In this document: positions 1 through 12,671 of the stretch, one piece after another
Layout: the number at the start of each line of letters is the position of its first letter
Position numbering within the stretch: the stretch's first letter is position 1
Source: an archaeon
GTDB lineage: Archaea > Nanobdellota > Nanobdellia > Woesearchaeales > GW2011-AR9
NCBI GenBank assembly: GCA_023266155.1
Contig: JAHFRS010000014.1
Location: forward strand, 1 to 12,671
Direction: 5' to 3'
DNA: 12,671 nucleotides
Made by a program: the position numbers and the translations under genes
Notes under the pieces: generated by a model
Databases searched by the model: none
What the model was told of the DNA's origin: nothing
Seen by the model: the letters and a program-made list of their open reading frames with translations, nothing else

Positions 1-37
1 AGACTGGAGTAAAGGCTGGAGTAAAAAGCCATTATCT

Positions 38-47
38 CTTTATAAAG
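38..47 (-). promoter_or_regulatory. TATA-like box, off-window gene to the left
   Basis: The box ctttataaag is a perfect palindrome, so its direction cannot be read from the box itself. The minus direction is preferred because the plus direction would run antisense into the RNA ligase gene. The paired 14-mers at 61-108 would then sit just upstream, where an archaeal regulator could bind. The expected transcript start is near position 15-20. Confidence 0.3.
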
Positions 48-101
48 ATTTCTTTTCAAAACCACGAACTTTCATCAAAAGTAGTGTAGTGCAACCACAA
101 A

Positions 102-121
102 CTTTCAGGTTGTGCTGAAAG
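102..121. repeat. 7-bp perfect hairpin / inverted repeat
   Basis: Arms ctttcag and ctgaaag flank a 6-base loop. The left arm overlaps the end of one of the two 14-mer repeats. No T-run follows on either strand close enough to call it a terminator. It may be an operator half-site pair or an RNA hairpin in the 3' tail of the RNA ligase transcript. Confidence 0.4.
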
Positions 122-208
122 AATAATCAGGAAAGCATTCTCGAAGAAAATAGTTTCTCCTCGTTTAGGCGAATCTTCTATTGATAGCAGCGTCTCCGAT
201 TCCCCATC

Positions 209-814
209 TTAATCCATTTTATGCTTTTTCCCGTCAAACCAGTCAAACATGTCCCGCCGCAGCTTGGCCATTTTTCCCGTGGAAGGCTGCACGAAGACAA
301 TGCCTTCTGCCGGCTGTACCATTCCCTTCCGGCGCACGAACAGCGAAAAGAGGTCGTCCTTGAACCATTTACTCAAAGTTTCGAAGTCCTTAGGATACTT
401 CCCCCAGCTGTTGTAGGCCAGATGCTTCCGGCAGAATGTCGTGAAAGGAACCCAGAGGTGTCCCTGAATTTTATGCGGATTGCCATTGACCTTTTCGCCG
501 ATAAGTTCGCCAAAATGCTGTCCGTCCGGAAGGTCGCAGTAACCTTTCTTGAAAGCTTCGAGAACACCTTCGATGAGGTGTGACTTGCCCTTCTTAAAGA
601 ACGGAATCTGTTCAGTCCTGTTCCAGATACTCACAATCTGCCCATGGTCAATGACAATACTGACATTAGTGCCGTCCAGTTTTTCTGTTGCCAGCACCGT
701 GTCGTCGGTAAACACCCAGTCCAGGCCTTCGGCTATTTGAGGCGTGACCAGGTACGCTTCGCCGCGCCTCTCCCGCACCAACGGCGATTCCAGTTTAGGC
801 ATGTCCTTAGGCAT
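209..814 (-). CDS. Minimal Rnl2-like RNA ligase (nucleotidyltransferase)
   Basis: A predicted ATP-dependent RNA ligase of 201 residues. The family first forms a covalent lysyl-AMP, moves AMP to a 5'-phosphate RNA end and then seals the nick. The nucleotidyltransferase motifs are visible in order: motif I EKLDGTN with nucleophile K45, a motif Ia-like arginine at R66, motif III FGEL with E103, motif IV AEGIVF with E170, and motif V KMAKLR with K184 and R186. T4 Rnl2 is about 330 residues with a C-terminal domain. This protein is essentially the catalytic domain alone. The ATG at 814 gives the longest frame; M5 is an alternative start. No strong ribosome-binding site is visible. It is transcribed away from a broken vapBC locus, so a link to RNA damage is possible but unproven. 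The fold and motif call is firm; the substrate is unknown, and a DNA substrate cannot be excluded. Confidence 0.88.
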   Translation of the reverse strand: MPKDMPKLESPLVRERRGEAYLVTPQIAEGLDWVFTDDTVLATEKLDGTNVSIVIDHGQIVSIWNRTEQIPFFKKGKSHLIEGVLEAFKKGYCDLPDGQHFGELIGEKVNGNPHKIQGHLWVPFTTFCRKHLAYNSWGKYPKDFETLSKWFKDDLFSLFVRRKGMVQPAEGIVFVQPSTGKMAKLRRDMFDWFDGKKHKMD

Positions 815-835
815 GGTTGTATTTTTCGCTCTATC

Positions 836-870
836 TTTAATATCATTAAAACCAGTGGTTCTTTATAAAT
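836..870 (-). promoter_or_regulatory. Candidate promoter of the RNA ligase gene
   Basis: Two TATA-like boxes face the ligase gene on the minus strand. One, tattaaa at about 836-843, sits roughly 25 bases from the ATG and would give a leaderless mRNA like the other genes here. The other, atttataaag at 861-870, is closer to consensus and would give a leader of about 25 bases. The sequence alone cannot decide between them. Confidence 0.5.
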
Positions 871-924
871 ATTGTGTTTTTATTACTTTAGAGTGGTTTT
901 GAGGTTCTTTACTGTACAGCGAAA

Positions 925-934
925 GATATTAATA
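925..934 (+). promoter_or_regulatory. TATA-like box of vapB
   Basis: The box gatattaata is centred about 28 bases upstream of the vapB ATG at 957, fitting a leaderless transcript. The stretch is broadly A/T-rich (a second TA run lies at 934-944), so the exact box is uncertain. Confidence 0.45.
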
Positions 935-956
935 CATATATACATACACAGACCAT

Positions 957-1226
957 ATGGCCACAAAAACGATCTCTATTATGGACGATGTCTACAAAAT
1001 GTTGGTCGCTTTCAAAGTTCCGAAGGAAAGCTTTTCTGACGAGATCCGGCGATTGGTTCGAACAAAAAGCAGCATTATGGAATTTGCCGGTGCCTGGAAG
1101 GACCTCTCTGAGGAAACTGCAGGAAAAATGAAGGGACGGATTCACGAGCGACGAAAGGAGAGAAGTAGACTGGAAGAACTCCGCCGAAAAACTATCCCGG
1201 GAAGGAAAAAAAATCGGCGAGACTGA
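957..1226 (+). CDS. vapB: VapB-type antitoxin, C-terminus altered by deletion
   Basis: A small antitoxin of the archaeal VapB type (DUF217-like). Family members bind their own promoter as dimers and use the C-terminal tail to neutralise the VapC PIN-domain RNase. The N-terminus (MATKTISIMDDVYKMLVAF) has the short strand plus helix typical of ribbon-helix-helix DNA binding. The segment ESFSDEIRRLV at about residues 23-33 is the usual second helix. A charged helix rich in E, R and K follows. The last 14 or so residues (from RRKTIP onward) are very basic and look unlike the family. They are the vapC remnant read in the wrong frame, because the vapC coding frame continues one base away. The true antitoxin tail therefore probably ended near residue 74. 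Without a working toxin it may persist as a relic or act on another VapC. Confidence 0.8.
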   Translation: MATKTISIMDDVYKMLVAFKVPKESFSDEIRRLVRTKSSIMEFAGAWKDLSEETAGKMKGRIHERRKERSRLEELRRKTIPGRKKNRRD

Positions 1227-1332
1227 TTGTTTAATAGTCGGAGTAGCGTTAGCCAATGGTATTACGGAAATAATTACCGATAACAAAGAACATTTTGAAC
1301 GAATTCCTTCTTTGAAGATTATTACCCCTTGA
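1183..1332 (+). pseudogene. vapC: Truncated VapC (PIN-domain toxin) remnant
   Basis: Reading from 1183, one base out of frame with vapB, gives about 49 codons to the TGA at 1330-1332. They include AEKLSREGKKIGETD, LIVGVALANG and TDNKEHFERIP. This matches the C-terminal third of a VapC PIN domain: the conserved aspartate of the GExD segment, the small hydrophobic helix with ALANG, and the final TxxxxHFxRIP motif. The family is normally about 130 residues and begins with a strand holding the first catalytic aspartate. All of that part, roughly 75-85 codons, is missing, and there is no start codon. The fragment joins the end of vapB directly, so one internal deletion with its junction near 1175-1185 explains both genes. 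It cannot make an active nuclease, since the N-terminal acidic residues are absent. Confidence 0.82.
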
Positions 1333-1333
1333 G

Positions 1334-1378
1334 AAAAAATAAGCCGAAGTTTTCAGAGTTTTCTGCTGACTTATCGGC
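1334..1378 (-). terminator. Hairpin plus U-tract terminator of the giant gene
   Basis: On the minus strand, about 40 bases past the stop of the giant gene, lies a stem GCCGA/TCGGC (1374-1378 with 1343-1347). It is extended by AGT/ACT across a two-base bulge and by a short inner CAG/CTG pair. A T-rich run (ttatttttt, 1342 down to 1334) follows at once. This is a textbook hairpin-plus-U-tract arrangement; archaeal termination often needs only the T-run. Confidence 0.6.
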
Positions 1379-1409
1379 CAAAGAAGGCACTGATGGTTAC
1401 ATGGGATAA

Positions 1410-1417
1410 TTTTTTTT
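1410..1417 (+). terminator. T8 run ending the vapB/vapC-remnant transcript
   Basis: Eight consecutive T's on the plus strand lie about 80 bases past the vapC remnant stop. They overlap the last codons of the convergent giant gene. A T-run of this length is enough for archaeal termination. Together with the minus-strand terminator next to it, it closes both convergent units. Confidence 0.45.
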
Positions 1418-4400
1418 ACTGCGTACTCAACGGTTCTTCCATTACTTCAACCAACTTTTCTGATGAAACTATCGGTCTCTCCAGTGGCGTGATAGAAATT
1501 CTGTTGGCCGGAAACAGTCCTGAATTCCGCAATCCTTCAATGACATCATTGCTCACGAGCCGCCGCACTTCCTCGGGGTGGTCAATGAACGTTTGCACAA
1601 TTTTTCCATTAACGACGGCATCCAATGAAAAGAGAGCATTTCCGGTAAGTTCTGCCCCCGCATGAAGAGGAATACCTAATCGCCTTGATTCTAAAGTTAA
1701 CAATTCTTCCAGGGGAATCTCATTGACAAGGGTCTCAATGTTTTCATATTTTGTGCCAAACAAGCCCCCCCATTTCTTTTTGACAGCAAACCAGCCAGCA
1801 TCATCAGGTGTCGAGAGATAGACATATTGTTGACCGCCAACATCGTATCTGGTAAATTTTGTGGGGTCATGAACATCTTGTGTTTTTTCCAGAAATCGTG
1901 CCCATCCATCAGGATTATCGTTAAAGAATCGCTCCTGCCAAGTTGTCTCCAGTAACGTATCACTGCCAAACCCATTGTCAATAAGGACAAACTGTTGAGT
2001 AGTTTTATCCCAGATAAAATTCCCTGGGTGTGCATCAAGGGGAAGGCCATGGCGAATCGAACTCTGGTAAATCTCTGCCAAACTATTAATTTGCGCTTCT
2101 GTCAATCGGCCTTCCTGAGATTTTAATAGTTTGGAAACTGTCGGCCCTTCCACAAATTCTTTGACTAAATATCGTGCGTCTGGATCTGGATTGAGAATAC
2201 GCGCGGTACGAATACCAGCTTTTTCTAACGCATCGCCACGTAAAACTTCCGCTTGCAGTTGCAACAACGATTCTCGCGGCGTAATTCCCGGATGAAGAGG
2301 ATCAAAAATAGGCAGCTTAATAATTTTGCTACATTCTGGATTATAACAATAAACAACACCAAATGAACCTTCTCCCAATTGAGGACCCAGTACTGTTGTT
2401 ATTCCATCCTGTTCCTGTAACTGGATAATTTTCCCTTCCAGCGAATTGGCCTGCTCGCTGGTGTAAACGCGGCCTTCTCGTAAATCTAAGGAAGCTTTAC
2501 TGGGACTAATTTTTGGTCCCCCTACTTTAAGCTTTTCTGGCACTGTAGTTACTTCCGCCTTCTGCGCCACCCTTCCGGTAATGGCCTGCTCTACATCTGC
2601 TGCTAAGTTAGGTGCCGGTTTTACTGTCAGATAATCAGTATTCTTATTGAGGTCACCGCCTGCTTCGACATAATCATCTAACAATCGAGCGAGAGCAGTA
2701 TCTTCGGCACCCGCGGCTCGTAATTCCTGTACTACTTCTCCATGATTCTGTACGCGTCGGACAACTTCAAAATCTATTTTTCGAGCTTCCGCTAAATTCC
2801 CTGCCTGCAATGCTTCCTGCCGATCAAGAAGTAATCTCGCCAACTCATCATCACGAGGCGTCGCAGTACGGGCTATCAGTTCTTCCAAATCACTGCCAGA
2901 GGGAGTACTTTTCATCAGGCGGACTTCTGCCGGGGTTGCCTCTGCTGCCCGCAATGGTCTTGGATTTAAGGCACCATGAGCCGCGGCGTCCGGTGTCACG
3001 ATGGGAAGGGCACCGTTGGATCTTCCAACACTTGTTTGTTCACGTAAATCATCCATCACCCGGGCAGCCACATTAGCCGATGAGGCCTGATCAAATCGAG
3101 CAGCAAGAGCAGCATCTGCTTTTCCGGCAATCTCGCGGATTTCAGATGAGGTAACTTCGCTCGCATCCAGGTTTTGTTCCAACCTTGCAGCAATATCTCG
3201 TGCTCGTTGCTGATCTGCGGGAGGCAGATGAGAAGCCTCATAGTCGAAATTCCTACCTTGAAATCTTCCTGGCGGAGCACCGGGTTCCAAGTTGCAGAGG
3301 GCACAGCCGGCGACCGCCAAATCCCCTGGTCTAGGACTAATATCAACATCTAACCCCTGTAATCCCCTAAGATCATCCTGGACTTGCAGAACTCTCCCTT
3401 CTGCCGAGCGACCACGAACTGCTGCTACTACGTTATCTTCCAGCCGTGCGCCCCAGGCAGCTTTTTCCGCTCGGTCAGCAGTTCGAAGCACTTCTTGAGC
3501 TACTTCTCTGGGAACAGGACTTCCAGTTTCTATTGCAGTTTTTAGTTGTTGTGATGCTTCACTATATTCTCGCAGTGCCTCACGATGTTCAGCAGTAACT
3601 CCTCGATCTCGAACGAGAAAATTAGAAGTTGCTGTTCTTCCATGTGCCTGCTGGACCACACGTGCATTTGCTAAAGCTTGTTCGGCACGCACTACCTCTT
3701 CAGCATTCCCAGTGGCTCGTGCTGCTTCTACAGCATGCTCGGCCTGCACAGCATTGTCTGCTAATTCTCTTCCTGTTGTTTCCAACGCACGTTGAATTCC
3801 AGCGATATTCTCGCCGGCAGAACGACCAATGGCACGAAATGGTGTTGCAGCTACATCTATCGTTGTGGCAACACTTTTAGCTATTTCTGTGGCTCTGACT
3901 GCTTCTGCAAACCTCGTGGCACTTTTAGCAATCATGATGCCGGCTCGGGTAGCTTTTCCCGCCTCCACAGCAACGCGACCAAGTTTAGCAGCAGTAGCAA
4001 AAGGAATAAAATTGTCAAGAGAAGAAATCTGGATAGCAATGTCCCGGTATTTGTCAAGAGTTCGAGCCGTGACAATTCCCTTTTTTTGGTCCAGCTCTTC
4101 ATCGAGTTGTTTTGCTCTCTGGCCAGCAACAGTATCAGAAAATTCACGGGTGAGTGCCTCAAACTCATTCTCAGCTACAAAGGTGTCTCCATTATGTAAT
4201 GTGACCTTTTTCATTACTTCATCTAATCGTATTTTTGCCTGCATCTCACGAGAAATATCCTGCCCAGAAAGCTGACGCTCGAGTGCCAGATGGAAATCGA
4301 CATCTCCACCAGCAAATGATTGGGCAGCCCGCAATGCTTCCAACGGGCTCTTCCCTTGATCCCTCGCATTTTTGTAGGCTACAAGAGCAAACTCAGAGGC

Positions 4401-7400
4401 ATGGGCATTTTCATAGAGAATGCGATGGGCCTTAAAGCGTTGATCCTGAAGTAAATCCACATAATTTGGATCAGCAAAATTTACGTCCGGGAGAACAGAA
4501 GCCACTGTCCCCACAACGACCCCCCCATAGTATCTGCCAAAATAATCTAAGAAACTATCATCGCGAGAAAGATCTTCCGAGGCTTGTTTTTTGTAATTCT
4601 GATTTTTCTCGTTTAGTCCTCCTAACTGTTCATTGATCAGCCTATCGGAAAATCCATTAATCAAGTGATACGCCTTATTTTTCTCATCCACGCTTTCGAT
4701 GACTGCCCTATAATTGAACGCTTCAGGGAGATTGCCTTCCTTCAGTGCTGCCTCCACCAAAATGACTTTTCCTTTATCAGAAGCAAGAGGAATCAGCCGT
4801 TCTACGGCGATACTTCTGGCTAACACCGTATCGCCGGCCTGTAACGCCAGCTCCGCCGCTTTGTCCGGCCGTTCACCGACATACTGTGACGTGAGATCAG
4901 TTATTGCCTCTTCCGTCGCGCCTTGAAAAGCATCCAGGCCATTCTGCTGCTGCTGTAACTGGGCTATATTTTCCCGAAGATGTTTTTCTTTTGTGGCTTT
5001 TTCTTCGGATGTTAAAGGAACCTGCCGGATAATTTCAGTAGTTTCACCTCCCACACCTCTGCCAAATCCTGTAACCTCTTTTGTCGCTGTAGGGAGTTGA
5101 TCTAATTCTTCGGTTAACAGAACTATCTGCTGTTCGGTCCCTTGCAATCGCTCTTTAATCTTTCGCATCTGGTCATGAAGGGCAGCTGCGTCTGATTCCG
5201 CATCGTCAAACCCTTCTACGGGTGCATTGGTTTCTATGTCCCGCTTTATTTCTCGCTCCCGTCGTTGTGACTCCCGATGTTCATTGATAGTGTCCATCTG
5301 GGCACGCACACGCTGTAATTCCACTATCTGCTTCTGATTGAATTTACGTTGTTCCTGCATTTCATTGCTTTCTTTCCCCTCGAGCCCCTCAGATTGTTTT
5401 AATGCCGTCCATTCACTGTTTTGTGCTTGCAGAGATCTCACTCGCGCGGCAGTGTATACATAGCCTAAAGTGGATCCTTTGTTCAAAGCTGTTTTAATTT
5501 GATCCTGACAATCCGGCGGAGCAATACAACTACCCTGCTCATTCAGCTGGACACCAAAATCCTGTGCCAATCGATCACGGAAATCCACAAACTCCTGCTG
5601 CTGTCTGACCGCAGCACGAATCTGGCCCAGATACTCAGGATTATTCACCAAATCAATATCTATTCTCGTCTGTTCCTTCAGATACCGTCGTAAATCCGGG
5701 TCAGCATCAAATTTCAATCCGGCAGAATCCAGTTCTCCATATTTCTTCTGCTGTAAAAGGTTTAATAATATCTGCACATTTTTCTTATTGTTCTCAGAAG
5801 TAATGATAATGGCCTCACCAACGGATTCCCCGACATTGAGATTGATCGGAGGAGGAACGATGTCAATTTTCTTTCCGTCACGATAGAGTTCCCGATACAG
5901 ACTAAGTCCCTGACTTCCTTCTGGTTTACTGATGCGAAGATATTCCTGTGAAGTCGGAGTTCCATCCTGGCTGCGGGACTCGCTGCTAAGACTCATATCC
6001 AAGTATCGTTCCAGAATGGCTGTATTGCCTTTTAGAGCTTCCGCAATTGCTCCCATCTGAGACGAAGAAGGATCAATGGTCAGAACACCAGCATTGCCCA
6101 TCACGACATTGATATTGAAATCAGTACTGCCAACGCTGCTAAAGAGGCGATTTCCTCTTTCCAATCGTTCGCCAAAGGCAATCGTTTTTACCACAGAAGT
6201 TGCCTGGCCAGCTCCACAGCCAAAACAAGCAACATCCATGATATCTGTATCTTTTCCGGTTCCGCTGCCAAAGCGACGTAGGGCCACGGAAGCGCCATCC
6301 TGCTTATTTTCAATACCACTATGTACAGTAACTTGGCCACTCTCGTATTTAACGTTCCCATACTGATCATCACTGTAAATCCCTTTTCCACGAACATCGA
6401 GGTCAACATCTCCATTTCTTTTCAGGTCAAATTCTGCTTTTCCGTCAGTACCGCGGTAATAAGGCCGGTTCAACAGCAAAACATTATCACGATAAAAACC
6501 AACGTCCGCTTTCCCTTTTGCCATCACGACCAGTTTATTACTGGCCGTTCTTCTGATCCAGACTTCCCCATTTTCTCCCAGGGAATTGGGCTGAGGCGGT
6601 ACTGCTCTGGCTCTCTCGCGCAGCTCTTTCGCGGGTGGTGGAGGTTGTATTTTATCCGGCTCTGCGGCCCGTTCCTGATGACGAGAAAAAGGTGAAGCGG
6701 CATCGAGATGAATTTTTACGACTTCATTTACACCTTTCTGTCCCTGAGATGTTACGCCGACATTTTCTGCTGAACCATCAAGATAAATGGCCACGGTTTC
6801 CCCCTTGCGGACATTTCCTAATGTACTATCGCCGTGATTCCAGATGTTTAATTCTCTGGCTGCTTTATTGTAATTGGCCGCACCGTCAATAAATAATTCC
6901 CGTGTAATAATTTCAGCATTCTGGGATGAAAAATCACCATCACCCTCCAGAATAAGCAATCCCCGCCGATTGTCATACTGTACTCTCTCACCCTGGACAA
7001 AGACAACACCACGGGCAGGACCGTCAACGGTAATCGTTCCATCAGCCGCCATATTAAACCGACCCGGTACTGGCGTCTTTCCTTCTTTCACTTCTGGCTG
7101 AATGAATTGGTTATTGTGACTTTGACCATCACTCATCGTGAAAGCTTTGGTCTCCGAATCATAACTTACCAAACCCTCACCCGTGCCGCCGAAACAGCTG
7201 TTTTTTCCGCCCGTAAATGTCACACAAAAACCATCTGCCACTAAGTCAATCCTCTGGACATTTGCTTGGTATTGCTCTAATGGAATAGTCTTTTGCCCAT
7301 TAACCATCATGCCATCTTTGCTATACGAAAAGTCTGGGCTCACTGTTGCTAATGTAAATGAGGGCCCCCAGCGCGCCTGAAAGAATTCCTGCACTTTGCC

Positions 7401-7817
7401 AGAATTTCCACGAAGGTATTGGTGTACTGTCGTCGAATCACCGGAGAAGAAAGTATCGCCGATGGAGATGGCCTGCTCATTACCAGTAAAAGAAATTCTG
7501 TTCAGATATTCCCAGGCAATTTGAGTATCCTGACTCGTAAAAGTATCTTTAGGTCCCAAAAAATTCCCGGCATTAGTTTTAAATTCCGGCCGGTCAAAAA
7601 AACCGGGATAATTCTGGGCCCGGGAAAAAAAATCAGGACTACCCCAGTTGGCAGAATTATCCAGCCATTGTAATTGTTGTTCTTGGTTCATCTGCGAGTA
7701 ATCTGGTTCTGCCGGAGCTGCTGAGGGAGTGGAAACATCAGTTTGCGCCAGAGAAGAAAACAGGAAAACCACTACCCACAGTAATAGTGCCAGCAAATAC
7801 TTTGTTTTGTTATTCAT
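1416..7817 (-). CDS. Giant exported protein with C-terminal kinase-like domain
   Basis: I do not recognise this 2133-residue protein as a named family. Residues 1-24 form a signal peptide: KTK, a hydrophobic core, then likely cleavage SLA|Q. Residues about 150-600 are Gly/Asp-rich and look beta-stranded. Residues 785-970 hold charged, Gln/Glu-rich coiled coil. Residues 985-1200 are helical and repeat-like. Residues 1265-1760 are long Ala-rich helices. A kinase-like domain starts near 1800: Gly loop GEGSFG (1815-1820), ATP-site K1834, likely helix-C E1857, catalytic loop LDAHPGN with D1928 and N1933, and DNG (for DFG) with D1947. The catalytic residues are therefore intact; the DAHPGN form resembles UbiB/aminoglycoside-kinase-like folds more than classical HRD kinases. 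All ten cysteines lie in five close pairs, as in disulfide-bonded exported proteins. The ATG at 7817 overlaps the preceding gene by 8 bases and has GGTGA just upstream. The signal peptide and kinase motifs are seen directly; extracellular kinase action is inference. Confidence 0.85.
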   Translation of the reverse strand: MNNKTKYLLALLLWVVVFLFSSLAQTDVSTPSAAPAEPDYSQMNQEQQLQWLDNSANWGSPDFFSRAQNYPGFFDRPEFKTNAGNFLGPKDTFTSQDTQIAWEYLNRISFTGNEQAISIGDTFFSGDSTTVHQYLRGNSGKVQEFFQARWGPSFTLATVSPDFSYSKDGMMVNGQKTIPLEQYQANVQRIDLVADGFCVTFTGGKNSCFGGTGEGLVSYDSETKAFTMSDGQSHNNQFIQPEVKEGKTPVPGRFNMAADGTITVDGPARGVVFVQGERVQYDNRRGLLILEGDGDFSSQNAEIITRELFIDGAANYNKAARELNIWNHGDSTLGNVRKGETVAIYLDGSAENVGVTSQGQKGVNEVVKIHLDAASPFSRHQERAAEPDKIQPPPPAKELRERARAVPPQPNSLGENGEVWIRRTASNKLVVMAKGKADVGFYRDNVLLLNRPYYRGTDGKAEFDLKRNGDVDLDVRGKGIYSDDQYGNVKYESGQVTVHSGIENKQDGASVALRRFGSGTGKDTDIMDVACFGCGAGQATSVVKTIAFGERLERGNRLFSSVGSTDFNINVVMGNAGVLTIDPSSSQMGAIAEALKGNTAILERYLDMSLSSESRSQDGTPTSQEYLRISKPEGSQGLSLYRELYRDGKKIDIVPPPINLNVGESVGEAIIITSENNKKNVQILLNLLQQKKYGELDSAGLKFDADPDLRRYLKEQTRIDIDLVNNPEYLGQIRAAVRQQQEFVDFRDRLAQDFGVQLNEQGSCIAPPDCQDQIKTALNKGSTLGYVYTAARVRSLQAQNSEWTALKQSEGLEGKESNEMQEQRKFNQKQIVELQRVRAQMDTINEHRESQRREREIKRDIETNAPVEGFDDAESDAAALHDQMRKIKERLQGTEQQIVLLTEELDQLPTATKEVTGFGRGVGGETTEIIRQVPLTSEEKATKEKHLRENIAQLQQQQNGLDAFQGATEEAITDLTSQYVGERPDKAAELALQAGDTVLARSIAVERLIPLASDKGKVILVEAALKEGNLPEAFNYRAVIESVDEKNKAYHLINGFSDRLINEQLGGLNEKNQNYKKQASEDLSRDDSFLDYFGRYYGGVVVGTVASVLPDVNFADPNYVDLLQDQRFKAHRILYENAHASEFALVAYKNARDQGKSPLEALRAAQSFAGGDVDFHLALERQLSGQDISREMQAKIRLDEVMKKVTLHNGDTFVAENEFEALTREFSDTVAGQRAKQLDEELDQKKGIVTARTLDKYRDIAIQISSLDNFIPFATAAKLGRVAVEAGKATRAGIMIAKSATRFAEAVRATEIAKSVATTIDVAATPFRAIGRSAGENIAGIQRALETTGRELADNAVQAEHAVEAARATGNAEEVVRAEQALANARVVQQAHGRTATSNFLVRDRGVTAEHREALREYSEASQQLKTAIETGSPVPREVAQEVLRTADRAEKAAWGARLEDNVVAAVRGRSAEGRVLQVQDDLRGLQGLDVDISPRPGDLAVAGCALCNLEPGAPPGRFQGRNFDYEASHLPPADQQRARDIAARLEQNLDASEVTSSEIREIAGKADAALAARFDQASSANVAARVMDDLREQTSVGRSNGALPIVTPDAAAHGALNPRPLRAAEATPAEVRLMKSTPSGSDLEELIARTATPRDDELARLLLDRQEALQAGNLAEARKIDFEVVRRVQNHGEVVQELRAAGAEDTALARLLDDYVEAGGDLNKNTDYLTVKPAPNLAADVEQAITGRVAQKAEVTTVPEKLKVGGPKISPSKASLDLREGRVYTSEQANSLEGKIIQLQEQDGITTVLGPQLGEGSFGVVYCYNPECSKIIKLPIFDPLHPGITPRESLLQLQAEVLRGDALEKAGIRTARILNPDPDARYLVKEFVEGPTVSKLLKSQEGRLTEAQINSLAEIYQSSIRHGLPLDAHPGNFIWDKTTQQFVLIDNGFGSDTLLETTWQERFFNDNPDGWARFLEKTQDVHDPTKFTRYDVGGQQYVYLSTPDDAGWFAVKKKWGGLFGTKYENIETLVNEIPLEELLTLESRRLGIPLHAGAELTGNALFSLDAVVNGKIVQTFIDHPEEVRRLVSNDVIEGLRNSGLFPANRISITPLERPIVSSEKLVEVMEEPLSTQ

Positions 7818-7829
7818 CTTTCACCACTA
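7803..7829 (-). promoter_or_regulatory. Translational coupling site of giant gene
   Basis: On the minus strand the sequence ggtgaaagATGaaTAA holds an archaeal-type ribosome-binding site (GGTGA), the ATG of the giant gene (7817-7815) and the stop of the upstream gene (7812-7810). This overlap decides the start of the giant gene and makes reinitiation by the same ribosome likely. Confidence 0.7.
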
Positions 7830-8838
7830 TTCTAACCTGCTGTTCATCTTTAAGCCCCTGAACATCCTCAACGCTAAATTTAACGACGTACATCCCGACC
7901 GGAGTGGCAGTCTGACTAATAACACCATCTGGCATTACCGGAAATAATATTGAATCAGAAGAAAAACGGAGGAGATCCTCTTCGGCATCCTTGGCCGTTA
8001 ACTGATACGAAAAAGAAGATCCTTTCTGGATGACCTGTTTGGGGATATAGGTTAACTCCGGGGCAGAATTGATGGCATCATCTTTAATGGCAAACATAAA
8101 TGTAAATGGAGCACTATCCGTCACAGAACTTTTATCGCTGAGAGAATAAATAAACGTCCGGGAATCAAAGGGAAAAGATGATAAAAAGTAGTTCTCATCT
8201 TGGGGGACATAGGCCAGTAAACGAGTCTGATTTTGCTGATGACTTTGAATAACGTTCCGTGCTTCCCTAACAACCGCTCCCACCCTCAACGGCACACTGT
8301 TCGAGAAATCCTCAATCTGGAAAGAATCATCACCCAAAGCCACTTTCAGTTTATACTTCGCCTTCACCGTGACATCCTCTAATCCGATCTTAACATCAGC
8401 CTTCAATACATTCTTTTCCGTAACGGTAATTCCCTCATTGGCAAAAACAAAAAAATCATCCAGGCAAGGATTAATATTTTCTTCGACATAACGATTCAGC
8501 TGCTGCTCCATCTTCTCAAGAGAAAGTCGGTTTACGCCATTCAGATAGCCGTAATTAATCAACGCATTTTCCGTGACAAGAATGGTGGTCGGATCATCAG
8601 GGTAAACGATACCACCTTGTATTCCCAGCAGATACATCGCCGGAGTAACAGTTTCCCGCAGACAACTTTCGATAAAAGTAGTTATTTGCGGTTTTAACCG
8701 CAGGGCTAAAGGTGATGCTAATTCTGTCTCCAGTCGGCCTTTTTCCAGTGAAGAAACGAGATAAAACACGCCGGCAAACACCGCGAGGAGAATGATACCT
8801 ATAATTAAGAAAATCGTCACCTGTCCTCTTTTTGGCAT
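7810..8838 (-). CDS. Prepilin-like membrane-anchored protein, Ig-like C-terminus
   Basis: A surface protein of 342 residues. The start MPKRGQVTIF followed by a hydrophobic helix (about residues 7-31) is a class III (prepilin-type) or simple N-terminal anchor, of a form I know from many Woesearchaeota-like proteins. Residues 50-130 contain IESCLRETV (C59), GIQGGIV and NPCLDD (C125). This CL...GxQGG pattern recurs in a DPANN family of unknown function; the two cysteines could pair. From N257 to the end the sequence (SAPELTYIP, SYQLTAKDAEED, VKFSVEDVQG) looks like a cadherin/Ig-like beta-sandwich. Its stop codon overlaps the start of the giant gene by 8 bases, so the two are co-translated. It may anchor or assemble the giant at the cell surface. 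The first ATG is supported by a TATA-like box 26-34 bases upstream. Function is otherwise unknown. Confidence 0.82.
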   Translation of the reverse strand: MPKRGQVTIFLIIGIILLAVFAGVFYLVSSLEKGRLETELASPLALRLKPQITTFIESCLRETVTPAMYLLGIQGGIVYPDDPTTILVTENALINYGYLNGVNRLSLEKMEQQLNRYVEENINPCLDDFFVFANEGITVTEKNVLKADVKIGLEDVTVKAKYKLKVALGDDSFQIEDFSNSVPLRVGAVVREARNVIQSHQQNQTRLLAYVPQDENYFLSSFPFDSRTFIYSLSDKSSVTDSAPFTFMFAIKDDAINSAPELTYIPKQVIQKGSSFSYQLTAKDAEEDLLRFSSDSILFPVMPDGVISQTATPVGMYVVKFSVEDVQGLKDEQQVRIVVKDE

Positions 8839-8862
8839 AAGGAGAAAAGTAGGCCTAAACCA

Positions 8863-9342
8863 CTATTTAAAGCTTCGGGGAAACTTCTTCTGACTTTTCT
8901 CTTTGATCTTTTCTTTCCGCAGCAGCTTTTCCATCTCCCGTACAAACTCCAGGACATCTTGATGGTCTTCTTCAATATCGTGAAACTCCCGATCTTCATC
9001 AACTTTCGCATACTGATGTACCAGCAAATTACGTAAACCGATAAGCTCTTTGATTTGTTGTGCTAACTTCTCGGGAAGCAGCCCATACTTTGAAAGGGTC
9101 GTGATGCTTTCCCGTGCTTCAGGGGGCCGTTCCAATCCTTTCCCAGAAATAATCATCATCACGACATCAACAATGGAATCAGCAATCAGCTCGATCGTTT
9201 TTTCCACGGCCCGCCGGGAGATCCGATTTCGCCTGAAAGTGGCTTGAGAAGGCAAATCTTCCATCAGTTCTTCATGGTAGCGCACAATCAGGTCAAGCTT
9301 ATCATTAATCCTTTGGATGTGTTTTGAATCGAGTGGTCTCAT
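8863..9342 (-). CDS. hepT: HepT-type HEPN RNase toxin (DUF86)
   Basis: Toxin half of an HEPN/MNT toxin-antitoxin pair, 159 residues. The hallmark RX4HXY motif is complete: R104, H109 and Y111 in RNLLVHQY. In this family R and H form the RNase active site at the dimer interface. The tyrosine is the residue that the MNT partner AMPylates to switch the toxin off. The rest is helical, as expected for HEPN. An N-terminal basic patch (FRRNRISRRAVEK) near residues 36-48 and a Lys-rich tail are notable. The usual DUF86 length is about 110-150, so the tail of about 20 residues (KEKIKEKSQKK) is slightly long. The gene overlaps mntA by four bases (ATGA), so antitoxin is made first and the two are coupled. 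The stop codon sits within the TATA-like box of the next gene. Confidence 0.9.
   Translation of the reverse strand: MRPLDSKHIQRINDKLDLIVRYHEELMEDLPSQATFRRNRISRRAVEKTIELIADSIVDVVMMIISGKGLERPPEARESITTLSKYGLLPEKLAQQIKELIGLRNLLVHQYAKVDEDREFHDIEEDHQDVLEFVREMEKLLRKEKIKEKSQKKFPRSFK
8864..8872 (-). promoter_or_regulatory. TATA-like box of the surface-protein operon
   Basis: The sequence ctttaaata on the minus strand is centred about 30 bases upstream of the ATG at 8838, with a purine-rich stretch before it. It overlaps the hepT stop codon. This suggests the surface-protein operon has its own promoter, although read-through from mntA-hepT is also possible because no T-run separates them. Confidence 0.5.
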
Positions 9343-9704
9343 ACTGTCGCCATCATCTCCTTATGGTACTCTTCCAGAAAAGCTTTATATCGCGGGTATT
9401 CTAATTCGATGTAGGAAAACTGCTGAAAGATTCGATCATCATTTCTGGTAAAGAGAAGTTTTCCATTAAAGAGGACCTCCCTTTTTATATGCAGAGGCAA
9501 GTCCTCGTAGAAACTAAAGTCGTATTTCTCCGGAAATTCGGTAATTATACGCAACTTCTGCCGTAGCGAGAGTAATGTTGTGGTAAAGATACAGAGATCA
9601 ATATCGCCATAATCCTTACTCTCCAGCGATGAGCCAAACTGAATAACTGATTCTACCAATGGGTTCCTCTTCAATGTATTTACAATTTCAATCAACTGTT
9701 CCAT
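9339..9704 (-). CDS. mntA: MntA-type minimal nucleotidyltransferase antitoxin
   Basis: Antitoxin partner of HepT, 121 residues, of the minimal nucleotidyltransferase (MNT) family. In characterised pairs this enzyme neutralises HepT by AMPylating the tyrosine of RX4HXY. The active site is FGSS...GDIDL: G24-S25 and the metal-binding D34 and D36, with D62 in KYDFSF the best candidate for the third carboxylate. Between GS and DxD there are eight residues, whereas the textbook MNT motif has ten. The loop is therefore short, but all catalytic residues are present. The C-terminus (DDRIFQQF onward) is helical. The gene is first in the operon, overlaps hepT by ATGA and diverges from mutS across a 110-base gap. 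The TATA-like box about 26 bases upstream supports the ATG at 9704. Confidence 0.88.
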   Translation of the reverse strand: MEQLIEIVNTLKRNPLVESVIQFGSSLESKDYGDIDLCIFTTTLLSLRQKLRIITEFPEKYDFSFYEDLPLHIKREVLFNGKLLFTRNDDRIFQQFSYIELEYPRYKAFLEEYHKEMMATV

Positions 9705-9726
9705 AACATCAGAAAAGGAAGACCGC

Positions 9727-9735
9727 TATAAAAAG
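9727..9735 (-). promoter_or_regulatory. TATA-like box of mntA-hepT
   Basis: The sequence ctttttata on the minus strand is centred about 26 bases upstream of the mntA ATG, consistent with a leaderless mRNA. Confidence 0.55.
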
Positions 9736-9763
9736 GTATCTCTGATTAAACTTTTTCGCCATT

Positions 9764-9779
9764 GTAACTTTCAACCACA
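9764..9779. promoter_or_regulatory. Motif shared with the left-edge repeats
   Basis: The stretch aactttcaaccacaa lies between the divergent mntA and mutS TATA-like boxes. It contains the same two blocks (aactttca and accacaa) as the paired 14-mers at 61-74 and 95-108, in swapped order. It may be a binding site for a shared regulator; chance is not excluded for A/T-rich words this short. Confidence 0.25.
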
Positions 9780-9784
9780 ACAAT

Positions 9785-9793
9785 CTTTAAAAA
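9785..9793 (+). promoter_or_regulatory. TATA-like box of mutS
   Basis: The sequence ctttaaaaa is centred about 26 bases upstream of the mutS ATG at 9815. No ribosome-binding site precedes the ATG, so a leaderless transcript is likely. Confidence 0.55.
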
Positions 9794-9814
9794 AAGGCCT
9801 CTTCTCAAGAGAGC

Positions 9815-12373
9815 ATGAGCGATGAAATCGGGGGAAGTCAGGGAAACAAGTCCAGCATCCTTGACTTTGAGCCAGAGCAGTTAACTCCCGGCATGCGACA
9901 ATATTTAGAAGTCAAAAGATCTCACCCTGACTGTCTGGTCATGCTCCGCATGGGCGATTTCTATGAGATGTTCTATGAGGATGCCATCACCGCCGCACGG
10001 GAATTAGAAATAACTCTCACCTCTCGAGGAAAGGGTGAAAAACGCGCGCCGTTAGCGGGTGTTCCCTTCCATGCCCTGGATACCTATCTCGGTCGGCTGG
10101 TCAAAAAAGGCTTTAAAGTTGCCATCGTCGAACAGCTGGAAGATCCTAAATTGGCGAAAGGGTTAGTCAAACGAGGCTTGGTTCGCATCGTCACCCCCGG
10201 AACAGTGATCGAAAGTTCTCTGCTGAATGAAAAAGAAAATAATTATCTTGTGGCACTCACATCATTTGGCGACCAGTATGCTTTAGCCAGCTGTGACCTT
10301 TCCACCGGCGAATTTTCCGTCACCAGTATTCGTGGCCAGCCGCAACTGTTTCATGAACTGGCCCGGTTAAATCCCCGTGAAAGCATCATTCCGCAAAGCT
10401 TACAGGTCGATAGAGAATTGCTGGAACAGCTCAAACGTCAGGGCTGTTTCCTCACGACGCTGGAAGATTATTTTTTCCGGCCGGAGAAAGCGGCGGAAAT
10501 CCTGCGGCAGCACTTTCAACTTCAGACTCTTTCCTCTTTTGGCCTCGACGAACGCAGCTTGTCGACGGCGGTCGCAGGAGCTTTGCTTCATTACCTGATC
10601 AGCACCCAAAAAAATTCGTTAAGTCATATCAAAAAGATAACTCATCGTCATAATCAGGAGACGATGCTGCTGGACTTTACGACGATACGTAACTTGGAAC
10701 TGCTGGGTAATATCCGTGACGGCTCACTGAAGGGGTCTTTATTGTCCGTGCTGGACCATACCATGACCGCGATGGGCGCTCGGCTGTTACGCCGCTGGAT
10801 CAAACAACCCTTGCTGCAGAAAGATAAAATTAATCAACGGCTGGATTCGGTTCAGGCACTGAAAGAAAACATTATTGCACGGGAAGAGATCATGGTAGGA
10901 CTTTCTGCTATCCAAGATTTGGAACGCTTGATCAGTAGAGTAAATTATGGAAACGCGACTCCCCGCGAGGTGCTAGCTCTGCGAAATTCACTCCAACTCT
11001 TGCCACTGGTCAAACAAAAAATAAGTTCATTACTTCAGGGATCCTCACCACTTCCCCACCAATCTCAGGGATCATCAAACCCCTTGCTTACAGAAATAGC
11101 CACTCTTCCTGATTTTTCTGCCCTTACTTCCATGCTCGCCGCCGCTCTTCGTGATGATGCTCCCATCACCATCCGGGAGGGAGGGATCATAAGGCAAGGT
11201 TATAACTCCGAACTGGATGAATGGCAAAAAATCAAAACGCATGGGCGAGACTATTTACAGCAGTGGGAAGAGCAGGAGCGGCAACGTACGGGAATTTCGA
11301 CCTTAAAAATTGGCTATACCGACGTTTTCGGCTATTTCATTGAAATTACCAAGAAAAATCTTCATTTAGTTCCCCGCCATTACCTCCGGAAACAAACGAC
11401 AGCAAATGCCGAGCGTTACATTACCGAAGAATTGAAACAATGGGAAGAAAAAATTCTCAGTGCCGAAGAAAAAATTGTGGAATTGGAATATACTTTGTTT
11501 CAGGCCCTGCTGACACAAATTGTACAGCACACCAGTGAAATTCAGGATGCTGCCTCTAAAGTTGCGGTGCTGGATGTTCTATGTTGCCTGGCGAAAGTCG
11601 CGGCAGAAAATAATTATCGAAAGCCTGAACTGGTGGAGCACGCCATCATTCATCTTCACCATTCTCGCCATCCGGTGATTGAACGAATGACTTCCAACTT
11701 CATTGCCAACGATATTAGATTAGATGAAAAAGAAATGATAATCATCACTGGCCCAAACATGAGTGGGAAAAGCACTTTGATGCGACAGGTAGCTTTAACC
11801 GTTCTTCTTGCCCAGATTGGTTCTTTCGTCCCGGCAGATAAAGCCGTGTTGGGTATCGTCGATCGGATATTTACCAGAGTCGGCGCCTATGATGACTTGA
11901 GTTCCGGGCAATCAACGTTCATGATTGAAATGAGTGAAACGGCGGCCATCCTTAATAATGCCACAGAAAAAAGTTTGATCATCCTTGACGAGATTGGCAG
12001 AGGAACGTCCACCTTTGACGGCGTCGCTATCGCCTGGAGTGTCGCTGAACATTTGTATCACCAGATCAAAGCTAGAACGTTATTTTCCACCCATTACCAC
12101 GTTCTGAACAAACTGACACAGCACTGTCCCCGCATCAGAAATTATAATTTAGCCGTTCGTGAAGTTAAAGATGAAATTATTTTTTTGCGGAAATTGGTTG
12201 AGGGTGGCACAGATCAAAGTTACGGGATTCATGTCGCTCAATTAGCGGGACTGCCCTCTGAAGTGGTTAACCGGGCGCGGGAGATTCAGGCGTTGTTAGA
12301 GAAAGATGATGAGATGATGAGAAAACTGAAAGGCAAAAGAATGGAGGAGCAGGTGAGTTTAGGAAGGTTTTGA
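9815..12373 (+). CDS. mutS: DNA mismatch repair protein MutS (bacterial MutS1 type)
   Basis: A full-length mismatch recognition ATPase of 852 residues, about the size of E. coli MutS (853). The mismatch-binding domain carries the diagnostic F-x-E in MGDFYEMF (F49, E51). The connector, lever/clamp and ATPase domains follow in normal order. The ATPase domain has Walker A GPNMSGKST (646-654), a signature region rich in DDLSSGQSTF, Walker B DEIGRGTSTFDG (D725, E726) and STHYH with H760. A small insertion in the lever region (about residues 408-425) contains a duplicated QGSS. The protein ends EEQVSLGRF, a clamp-binding-like peptide; there is no long C-terminal tetramer domain after it. MutS1 is patchy in archaea and is usually viewed as bacterial in origin. 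No mutL is in the window. The gene diverges from mntA-hepT. The start fits the normal spacing before LTPGMRQYLEVK and the TATA-like box. Confidence 0.97.
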   Translation: MSDEIGGSQGNKSSILDFEPEQLTPGMRQYLEVKRSHPDCLVMLRMGDFYEMFYEDAITAARELEITLTSRGKGEKRAPLAGVPFHALDTYLGRLVKKGFKVAIVEQLEDPKLAKGLVKRGLVRIVTPGTVIESSLLNEKENNYLVALTSFGDQYALASCDLSTGEFSVTSIRGQPQLFHELARLNPRESIIPQSLQVDRELLEQLKRQGCFLTTLEDYFFRPEKAAEILRQHFQLQTLSSFGLDERSLSTAVAGALLHYLISTQKNSLSHIKKITHRHNQETMLLDFTTIRNLELLGNIRDGSLKGSLLSVLDHTMTAMGARLLRRWIKQPLLQKDKINQRLDSVQALKENIIAREEIMVGLSAIQDLERLISRVNYGNATPREVLALRNSLQLLPLVKQKISSLLQGSSPLPHQSQGSSNPLLTEIATLPDFSALTSMLAAALRDDAPITIREGGIIRQGYNSELDEWQKIKTHGRDYLQQWEEQERQRTGISTLKIGYTDVFGYFIEITKKNLHLVPRHYLRKQTTANAERYITEELKQWEEKILSAEEKIVELEYTLFQALLTQIVQHTSEIQDAASKVAVLDVLCCLAKVAAENNYRKPELVEHAIIHLHHSRHPVIERMTSNFIANDIRLDEKEMIIITGPNMSGKSTLMRQVALTVLLAQIGSFVPADKAVLGIVDRIFTRVGAYDDLSSGQSTFMIEMSETAAILNNATEKSLIILDEIGRGTSTFDGVAIAWSVAEHLYHQIKARTLFSTHYHVLNKLTQHCPRIRNYNLAVREVKDEIIFLRKLVEGGTDQSYGIHVAQLAGLPSEVVNRAREIQALLEKDDEMMRKLKGKRMEEQVSLGRF

Positions 12374-12403
12374 ACTGGTGAGAAGCCTAACTTATAGCTC
12401 AGC

Positions 12404-12416
12404 TTTTGCGGTTTTT
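12404..12416 (+). terminator. T-rich terminator-like run after mutS
   Basis: Two T clusters (tttt, then ttttt ending at 12416) lie 30-43 bases after the mutS stop, with a weak aagc/gctt stem before them. Archaeal termination needs little more than such a run. Confidence 0.4.
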
Positions 12417-12428
12417 GACATTTAAATA

Positions 12429-12608
12429 TTAGAGTACGCAAATCATATCTATTCGACGGGCTGTCTTATGACCATCAACGCTATACTGATGGTGTCCAGA
12501 TGGTGATTGGCGATTTTGGTTTGCGTACTGCTTTCTGTAAAGCTTAGCCAGTAAGAACGAGAATATTTCTACCTTGAAAAACCCTGCGGAGTTTTTAAGC
12601 GCATTCAT
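12429..12608 (-). CDS. Possible small basic protein, 59 residues
   Basis: An ATG at 12608 opens 59 codons to the TAA at 12431-12429, convergent with mutS. I do not recognise the product. It begins MNALKNSAGFFKVEIF, continues with a short hydrophobic helix (FSFLLAKLY), then a Gln/Asn/His-rich and basic part (NRQSPSGHHQYS, HKTARRID), ending ICVL. There is no signal peptide or known motif. The main support is a TATA-like box (ttttttaata, 12638-12629) centred 25 bases upstream of the ATG, the same spacing as at the other genes here. Against it: the length is near chance, there is no ribosome-binding site, and the same DNA holds inverted repeats that may be the real signal. Confidence 0.3.
   Translation of the reverse strand: MNALKNSAGFFKVEIFSFLLAKLYRKQYANQNRQSPSGHHQYSVDGHKTARRIDMICVL
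12433..12529. repeat. 10-bp inverted repeat enclosing a smaller hairpin
   Basis: The arms agtacgcaaa (12433-12442) and tttgcgtact (12520-12529) are perfect complements. Inside, ccatca (12472-12477) pairs with tgatgg (12487-12492) around a 9-base loop, with a possible GA/TC extension over a two-base bulge. This nesting could be a structured RNA or the remnant of a small element. No conserved RNA family motif is recognised. Confidence 0.4.
12576..12596 (+). terminator. Hairpin with T5, terminator-like
   Basis: The stem aaaaacCC / GGagttttt with loop tgc and a bulged A (about 12577-12595) ends in five T's on the plus strand. It could back up termination after mutS. It could also lie inside the possible small minus-strand gene by chance. 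Confidence 0.3.
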
Positions 12609-12628
12609 CAGCAGGTCTTTCGCTGAAT

Positions 12629-12638
12629 ATTAAAAAAG
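12629..12638 (-). promoter_or_regulatory. TATA-like box of the possible small gene
   Basis: The sequence ttttttaata on the minus strand is centred about 25 bases upstream of the ATG at 12608, matching the leaderless pattern seen elsewhere in the window. Confidence 0.35.
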
Positions 12639-12671
12639 CTCCAGACCGACCGTACTCTGCGCGGGGAATAG

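Follow-up and report, generated by a model that had tools for sequence, protein, structure and literature searches.

A 12,671-nucleotide stretch of archaeal DNA (contig JAHFRS010000014.1, positions 1 to 12,671; hereafter the window) encodes a giant, very probably exported protein that ends in a kinase-like domain. We estimate the probability at about 0.5 that this protein, with its kinase, belongs to a polymorphic family of giant effectors exported through Sec in one DPANN order, and that it acts on a partner cell. Judged from sequence, its place in an exported mosaic family is highly probable, and the delivery of its kinase into another cell has about an even chance of being correct. Little is understood of the means by which DPANN archaea affect the cells on which they live; a family with a constant part, a partner gene and swapped tails would offer concrete effector candidates and a search handle for more. 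Among the matches listed, the open-licence literature on DPANN or archaeal toxins, giant proteins, secreted kinases and effectors contained no account of this family.

Export signal and kinase-like domain of the giant protein

The gene (1416..7817; features of the window are on the minus strand unless indicated otherwise) is a single open frame of 6.4 kb that starts with ATG and encodes 2133 residues. The frame, which the original prediction had proposed from the sequence of the window only, is real and has matches in a family of related proteins. A signal peptide had been predicted at residues 1-24 (7746..7817), and its hallmarks are visible in the sequence: two lysines (K4 and K6), a hydrophobic core (15-residue hydropathy of 2.69) and Ser-Leu-Ala at residues 22-24. 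Past the first 30 residues, no 19-residue window exceeded 1.3 on the Kyte-Doolittle scale. Since a second membrane-like segment was not seen, ordinary topology rules would place everything past residue 24 outside the cell. An uncleaved anchor facing inward was looked for and not found; all 15 intact starts in the family, including those of the relatives P0002 and P0003, resemble signal peptides, with hydrophobic N-terminal cores of 2.23-3.63. The N-terminal hydropathy of ordinary local kinases was at most 1.37 (28 readable of 30 loci) and that of five larger kinase proteins at most 0.43. Signal peptide calls rest on direct sequence reading and hydropathy, and on these the window protein is very probably exported via Sec.

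The C-terminal module (residues 1781-2106; 1500..2477) is very probably a kinase-like domain with intact motifs, as indicated by Pfam, NCBIfam, PDB, profile-profile comparison and comparison with P0002. The latter, an unnamed protein of 2132 residues (source 'ncbi'), was the sole close relative found. It shares the N-terminus (31% identity in one local alignment of 997 columns) and the kinase (61% identity over 99% of the region), and carries an extra C-terminal stretch past the kinase that the window protein lacks. The kinase motifs were found where they had been predicted: a Gly loop at residues 1815-1820 (G1815, G1817, G1820; 2358..2375), K1834 as the likely ATP-binding lysine (2316..2318), a catalytic loop from D1928 to N1933 (2019..2036) and D1947 as the likely metal-binding aspartate (1977..1979). 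E1857 and E1887 probably belong to the motifs as well. Gly loop, Lys, Glu, catalytic Asp, Asn and metal Asp are all present and in kinase order. The catalytic loop reads D-A-H-P-G-N, lacking the His of HxD, and the DFG-like site reads D-N-G. All 11 positions checked (G1815, G1817, G1820, K1834, E1857, E1887, D1928, H1930, N1933, D1947 and G1949) were identical in P0002, so that K1834, D1928 and D1947 are kept in this one homologue.

The domain matched the NCBIfam model Bud32 (TIGR03724; E 1.4e-5, 24.7 bits, below the curated cut-off of 125) and the Pfam model ABC1/UbiB (PF03109; E 1e-3, 18.7 bits, below the gathering cut-off of 22.9). In addition, it matched protein kinases in the PDB (1.7e-4 with the single sequence, 3.7e-5 with a two-sequence profile) and, at 1e-3, the PADLOC entry PD-T4-6, which we take to be a kinase system. 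In profile-profile comparison, the two-sequence domain profile scored 97.3% (E 2.3e-11) against 20 local Pkinase homologues, over columns 29-171 from the Gly loop through the DFG-like site, and 90.8% against 30 Bud32 homologues. Reversed profiles scored 0.1% each; the family N-terminal core (N-core) and the partner protein described below scored 0.3% each. Given 97.3% against 0.1% for the reversed profiles, the similarity to kinases goes beyond chance. Per 100 window residues, identities with P0002 numbered 31-38 (residues 1-800), 12-25 (residues 801-1700) and 41 (residues 1701-1800), with many gaps beyond residue 1200, and then 72, 64 and 54 across the kinase module. The higher identity there than in the rest of the protein points to constraint on the kinase domain.

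The mosaic family and its partner gene

The family is defined by a beta-rich N-terminal region (residues 105-640; 5898..7505), with identities of 24-33% to 9 relatives across residues 237-600. An AlphaFold2 model of residues 25-800, with a predicted local distance difference test (pLDDT) score of 81.4, agrees with the beta-rich character. When whole genomes were searched, the full protein matched in 10 of 191; a 10-sequence N-core alignment, applied to 352 genomes of one DPANN order, matched in 15. Both counts include the window's own genome. The one genus sibling searched contained no family member. Each matching genome has one N-core giant. Members intact at both ends range from 1955 residues (G098) to 7647 residues (G016); others are cut at contig ends, and G018 is split over two frames beside a run of N.

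Behind the constant part the C-termini are mosaic, with tails swapped between proteins that are otherwise alike. Residues 1-1890 of G030 and G071 agree at 74.6% identity, and the sequences beyond them differ; the same holds for G010 and G060 after 1300 residues at 45.8% identity. Residues 1313-1789 of G018b, about 477 in all, match G071 1901-2366 at 52% identity although much of the rest is dissimilar, and C-terminal stretches of G012 and G018b share 59% identity over 227 columns. P0003 (2254 residues) has the N-terminus in common with the window protein (30% identity) and not the window-type kinase.

Three kinds of kinase-like module occur among the family tails; the other tail domains mostly gave no identification. 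Tests on the module alignments, rather than on single members, scored 96.2% against local kinases for module A (G071, G002, G030, G036 and G129, the last without a clear Gly loop) and 95.9% for module C (the tail of G002 and the middle of G030), both in profile-profile comparison. Module B did not pass the profile test against local kinases. The window kinase profile scored 3.2% against module A (16.6% in the reverse direction), 1.0-1.8% against C and 0.1% against B, so that the kinds of module are distinct. Overall, five of the 11 members with an intact C-terminus carry a kinase-like module (the window protein, G002, G071, G030 and G129), as does G036, which is cut by a contig end. By eye, hydrolase motifs were seen in the tail of G016 and metallopeptidase motifs twice in G030.

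Two smaller elements recur. A Cys-bounded, Ala/Gly-rich element of 13-25 residues often lies between modules, with up to six per protein, and was noted in G030, G071, G036, G002, G016, G012, G018b, G020, P0002 and P0003. A pattern, written after examples had been seen, found 21 of these in 10 of 17 proteins, against a mean of 0.16 and a maximum of 2 over 500 shuffles; it found none in the window protein. The element might serve as a linker, as a site for processing or as a loop active on membranes. The second is a module of about 60 residues with the sequence pattern GGxxYVY...GW...LExxRLxIPL, present in the window protein at residues 1992-2051 (1665..1844), in P0002 at 1843, in G071 at 2416 and in G030 at 2930 and 3337.

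Directly upstream of the giant gene, with an overlap of 8 bases, lies an open frame for a protein of 342 residues (7810..8838), the partner. Its start carries the motif of a class III (pilin-like) signal peptide; it also has two conserved Cys residues and an Ig (immunoglobulin)-like C-terminus, on which Pfam Big_9 scored 21.8 bits against a cut-off of 23.6; the match on the G016 partner was weaker. In the alignment, 13 of 16 partners have the Ig-like region. The motif [DERK][GA][ALIFQMVED][ILMVTAS], which we take to denote a class III signal peptide, occurs in 16 of 16. A partner gene was found directly upstream of all 12 giants for which upstream DNA was at hand (window, G016, G071, G030, G036, G018, G011, G012, G327, G129, G010 and G098). 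Contig ends lie at or close to the starts of the giants of G002, G020 and G060. A second contig of G002 breaks off shortly after a partner gene, and one of G060 breaks off inside a frame that follows such a gene, which fits the link without proving it. The partners carry Q at position +1, as do euryarchaeal proteins with class III peptides (PMC2910488).

The partner belongs to a large paralogous family, with matches in all 49 genomes of the taxonomic family, 4 to 17 in each. The partner frame was recognised at 28 of 30 such loci, and at 22 of these 28 the next frame has a hydrophobic N-terminus (by eye); of the others, two meet a contig end, in three the frame leaves the locus, and in one the next frame lacks a hydrophobic start. 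Partner and exported protein thus seem to form a two-gene module of general occurrence, with the giants as one type. The findings suggest that the partner may tether the giant to the membrane or to a pilus-like assembly. A family of archaeal membrane proteins whose Ig-like domain is extracellular (arCOG02884) appears in a 2019 overview (PMC6393860) as a predicted component of a putative secretion system.

Two side observations concern further large or exported proteins. At locus L024 (49-1710, minus strand), an exported-looking protein behind a partner gene matched peptidase M64 (7.2e-9) and may be further cargo of the module. On contig C36 of G043 (L153, L161, L162 and L154), a frame that begins like a signal peptide runs for 17,312 residues without closing before the contig stops. 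Near its C-terminus lie two kinase domains (Pfam Kdo 8.6e-19 and Pkinase 9e-19, two stretches each); no N-core match for this genome was among the matches listed.

The remaining parts of the window protein are less distinctive. Within the beta-rich region, C531 and C534 (6216..6227) occupy alignment columns that are invariant in 10 of 10 sequences. A less conserved, apparently helical and coiled-coil region follows (residues 640-1390; 3648..5900), of which residues 1179-1390 recur in relatives. The modelled beta-rich character fits the predicted layout; the coiled-coil and helical character past residue 800 is read from the sequence. Residues 1255-1300 (3918..4055) form a moderately hydrophobic stretch with a D-x-x-P-like motif, common to several relatives and without a Pfam match in the window protein. 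C1505-x-x-C1508 (3294..3305) lies roughly at the site of the relatives' Cys-bounded element. The region preceding the kinase (residues 1676-1780; 2478..2792) is similar in P0002 and weakly so in P0003, although the C-terminal domain of P0003 differs. Trafficking or pre-toxin domains gave no Pfam match in the N-terminus of the window protein, where a divergent domain might escape matching, and none in 10 of 14 aligned hydrophobic regions (E<=5).

Possible modes of action

According to the reading that we favour, the giant would leave the cell through Sec and be held by the partner at the cell surface or on a pilus-like structure. Its beta-rich half would bind the partner (host) cell, the tail would enter that cell, and the kinase would phosphorylate host targets with the ATP present there. 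The hydrophobic helical region, and the Cys-bounded linkers of the relatives, might serve delivery or release. Kinases need ATP, which is scarce outside cells, and this favours action inside another cell. In addition, tails swapped behind a constant exported part are as expected for polymorphic effectors (PMC3482391). The original prediction had proposed an extracellular or delivered kinase effector used in contact with a host cell; export (very probable) and an intact kinase-like tail bear it out in part, and use in host contact stays an inference. The view of a single sequence could not reveal a mosaic family with a partner gene, and it is this family that argues more strongly for effectors. 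Should the kinase work inside a partner cell, an archaeon would here be using protein phosphorylation between prokaryotes.

Several points weigh against this reading. The kinase-domain matches reach no curated Pfam or NCBIfam cut-off, P0002 on its own gave no Pfam kinase match at E<=1, and AlphaFold2 with 4 sequences produced an unusable model of the domain (mean pLDDT 37.5). The window kinase type is rare: among 352 genomes only its own copy was clear, with nine further weak matches (E 8e-5 to 0.01), and a database of 5.8 billion proteins gave a single match, P0002. Six of the 11 members with an intact C-terminus lack a profile-supported kinase module, and three of 15 members (G020, G011 and G327) are cut before any kinase could show. 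Possible membrane segments before the G043 kinases and a hydrophobic stretch before the P0002 kinase mean that such kinases need not all lie outside. Finally, genes for secretion or injection machinery were not recognised at the locus, and elsewhere in the genome they were not searched for.

The lack of visible injection machinery would suit a protein that stays on the surface as a kinase or adhesin, binding neighbours or matrix, with a tail that uses released ATP on surface proteins or only binds ligands. A beta-rich exported N-terminus and an Ig-like membrane partner also fit such a role. However, the catalytic residues kept in P0002 argue against mere binding, the scarcity of extracellular ATP is established knowledge, and the exchange of tails resembles effectors more than a single surface function, so that we consider a surface role unlikely. 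Some bacterial effectors with a kinase fold carry out AMPylation or glutamylation, and the tail might do another reaction of this type in the target cell. D-N-G in place of D-F-G, the unusual catalytic loop and the strong divergence from Pfam kinase models would agree with this, but the protein has the Lys, both Glu, Asp, Asn and Asp expected in a normal kinase, and P0002 has the same residues, which makes another reaction improbable.

The hydrophobic stretch of P0002 (around residues 1346-1371, with basic residues after it) and the possible membrane segments of G043 could instead indicate a receptor kinase, with an ectodomain that senses contact and a tail in the producer's own cytoplasm; giant DPANN proteins with a cytosolic ATPase end have been described (PMC10266531). 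Against this, the window protein has no second hydropathy window above 1.3 although its kinase closely resembles that of P0002, and the elements of the relatives are Ala/Gly-rich, mostly of marginal hydrophobicity and repeated within one protein. We regard a receptor kinase as quite improbable. A polymorphic toxin aimed at kin, as in bacteria, and paired with an immunity protein would have the same anatomy of a constant exported N-terminus and exchanged C-terminal modules, but is very improbable given one N-core giant per matching genome, four of 11 giants with an intact 3' end lacking a same-strand frame of at least 40 residues that starts within 200 bases downstream, and differing downstream frames (by eye) in the other seven, none evidently shared, with immunity genes elsewhere not searched for. 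One of these frames encodes the partner of another module and one a lipoprotein-like product; the one in the window lies antisense to a VapB-like gene. The lack of a shared downstream frame argues against competition among kin with an immunity gene next door and in favour of a target cell of another kind, such as a host.

The favoured reading of a delivered kinase can be extended, tentatively and on the doubtful side of the scale, to a contact-delivery system specific to DPANN: a pilin-like Ig protein would present a Sec-exported giant, whose exchangeable enzyme cargo, above all protein kinases, would enter host archaeal or bacterial cells. These would be the first archaeal effector kinases, and the Cys-bounded elements would be membrane-inserting or cleavable cassette linkers.

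Neighbouring genes and comparison with known systems

In the window, a HepT/MntA-like toxin-antitoxin pair (8863-9704; Pfam, NCBIfam) adjoins the module, and a similar pair was seen by eye at the G011 locus (L024, 2624-3377, minus strand). An RNA ligase family protein (209-814; Pfam 3.6e-7) and a VapB-type antitoxin (957-1226, plus strand; Pfam 1.8e-15) are also encoded; a toxin gene beside this antitoxin was not recognised in the window. L,D-transpeptidase-like genes, odd in archaea without peptidoglycan, lie beside giants at L023 (413-1249; YkuD, 4.1e-14) and, by eye, at L022 (9638-10399) and L024 (6956-7666). Lipoprotein-like genes for about 240-250 residues lie near three giants (L021 451-1179, minus; L020 14674-15399, plus; L049 5866-6630, plus; all by eye).

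Bacterial effector kinases exist, for example in Legionella, Yersinia and Shigella. The proposed role of an exported kinase acting in another cell is like theirs, a likeness of role alone; unlike them, the window protein has an archaeal producer, a giant carrier and another export route. Bud32 and ABC1/UbiB are the nearest NCBIfam and Pfam models of the catalytic core. These kinases are cytoplasmic, unlike the window protein, which scores under their cut-offs.

In DPANN archaea, effectors have been postulated as yet unknown, with none named in the part of PMC10266531 at hand. The SPEARE-type giants of nanohaloarchaea described there combine Ig repeats with a membrane segment and a cytosolic, VirB4/TraG-like ATPase. 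Like the window protein they are giant, Sec-exported DPANN proteins proposed to act on hosts, but in Pfam the window protein shows neither Ig repeats nor such an ATPase (E<=1 for the latter). The VARTIG modules of Thermococcales include a large protein of several domains with a C-terminus made hypervariable by recombination, and they have been likened to polymorphic toxin systems (PMC8416519). Both are archaeal loci for a large protein with a variable C-terminus and involve Ig domains; in VARTIG, as far as the part at hand goes, the Ig domain itself varies, whereas here the Ig-like domain sits in a separate partner. The terms 'kinase' and 'DPANN' were not found in the part of that paper at hand.

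Bacterial polymorphic toxins combine an exported constant N-terminus with C-terminal modules swapped by recombination, and kinases are among their activities (PMC3482391). In the same source, immunity genes are called invariably adjacent, and classical systems are said to be generally few in most archaea. The family described here is like these systems in its constant exported N-terminus and exchanged C-terminal modules. It differs from them in that no Pfam-known N-terminal or pre-toxin domain and no shared immunity gene were seen, and in that it consists of multi-module giants of up to 7647 residues accompanied by a pilin-like partner gene.

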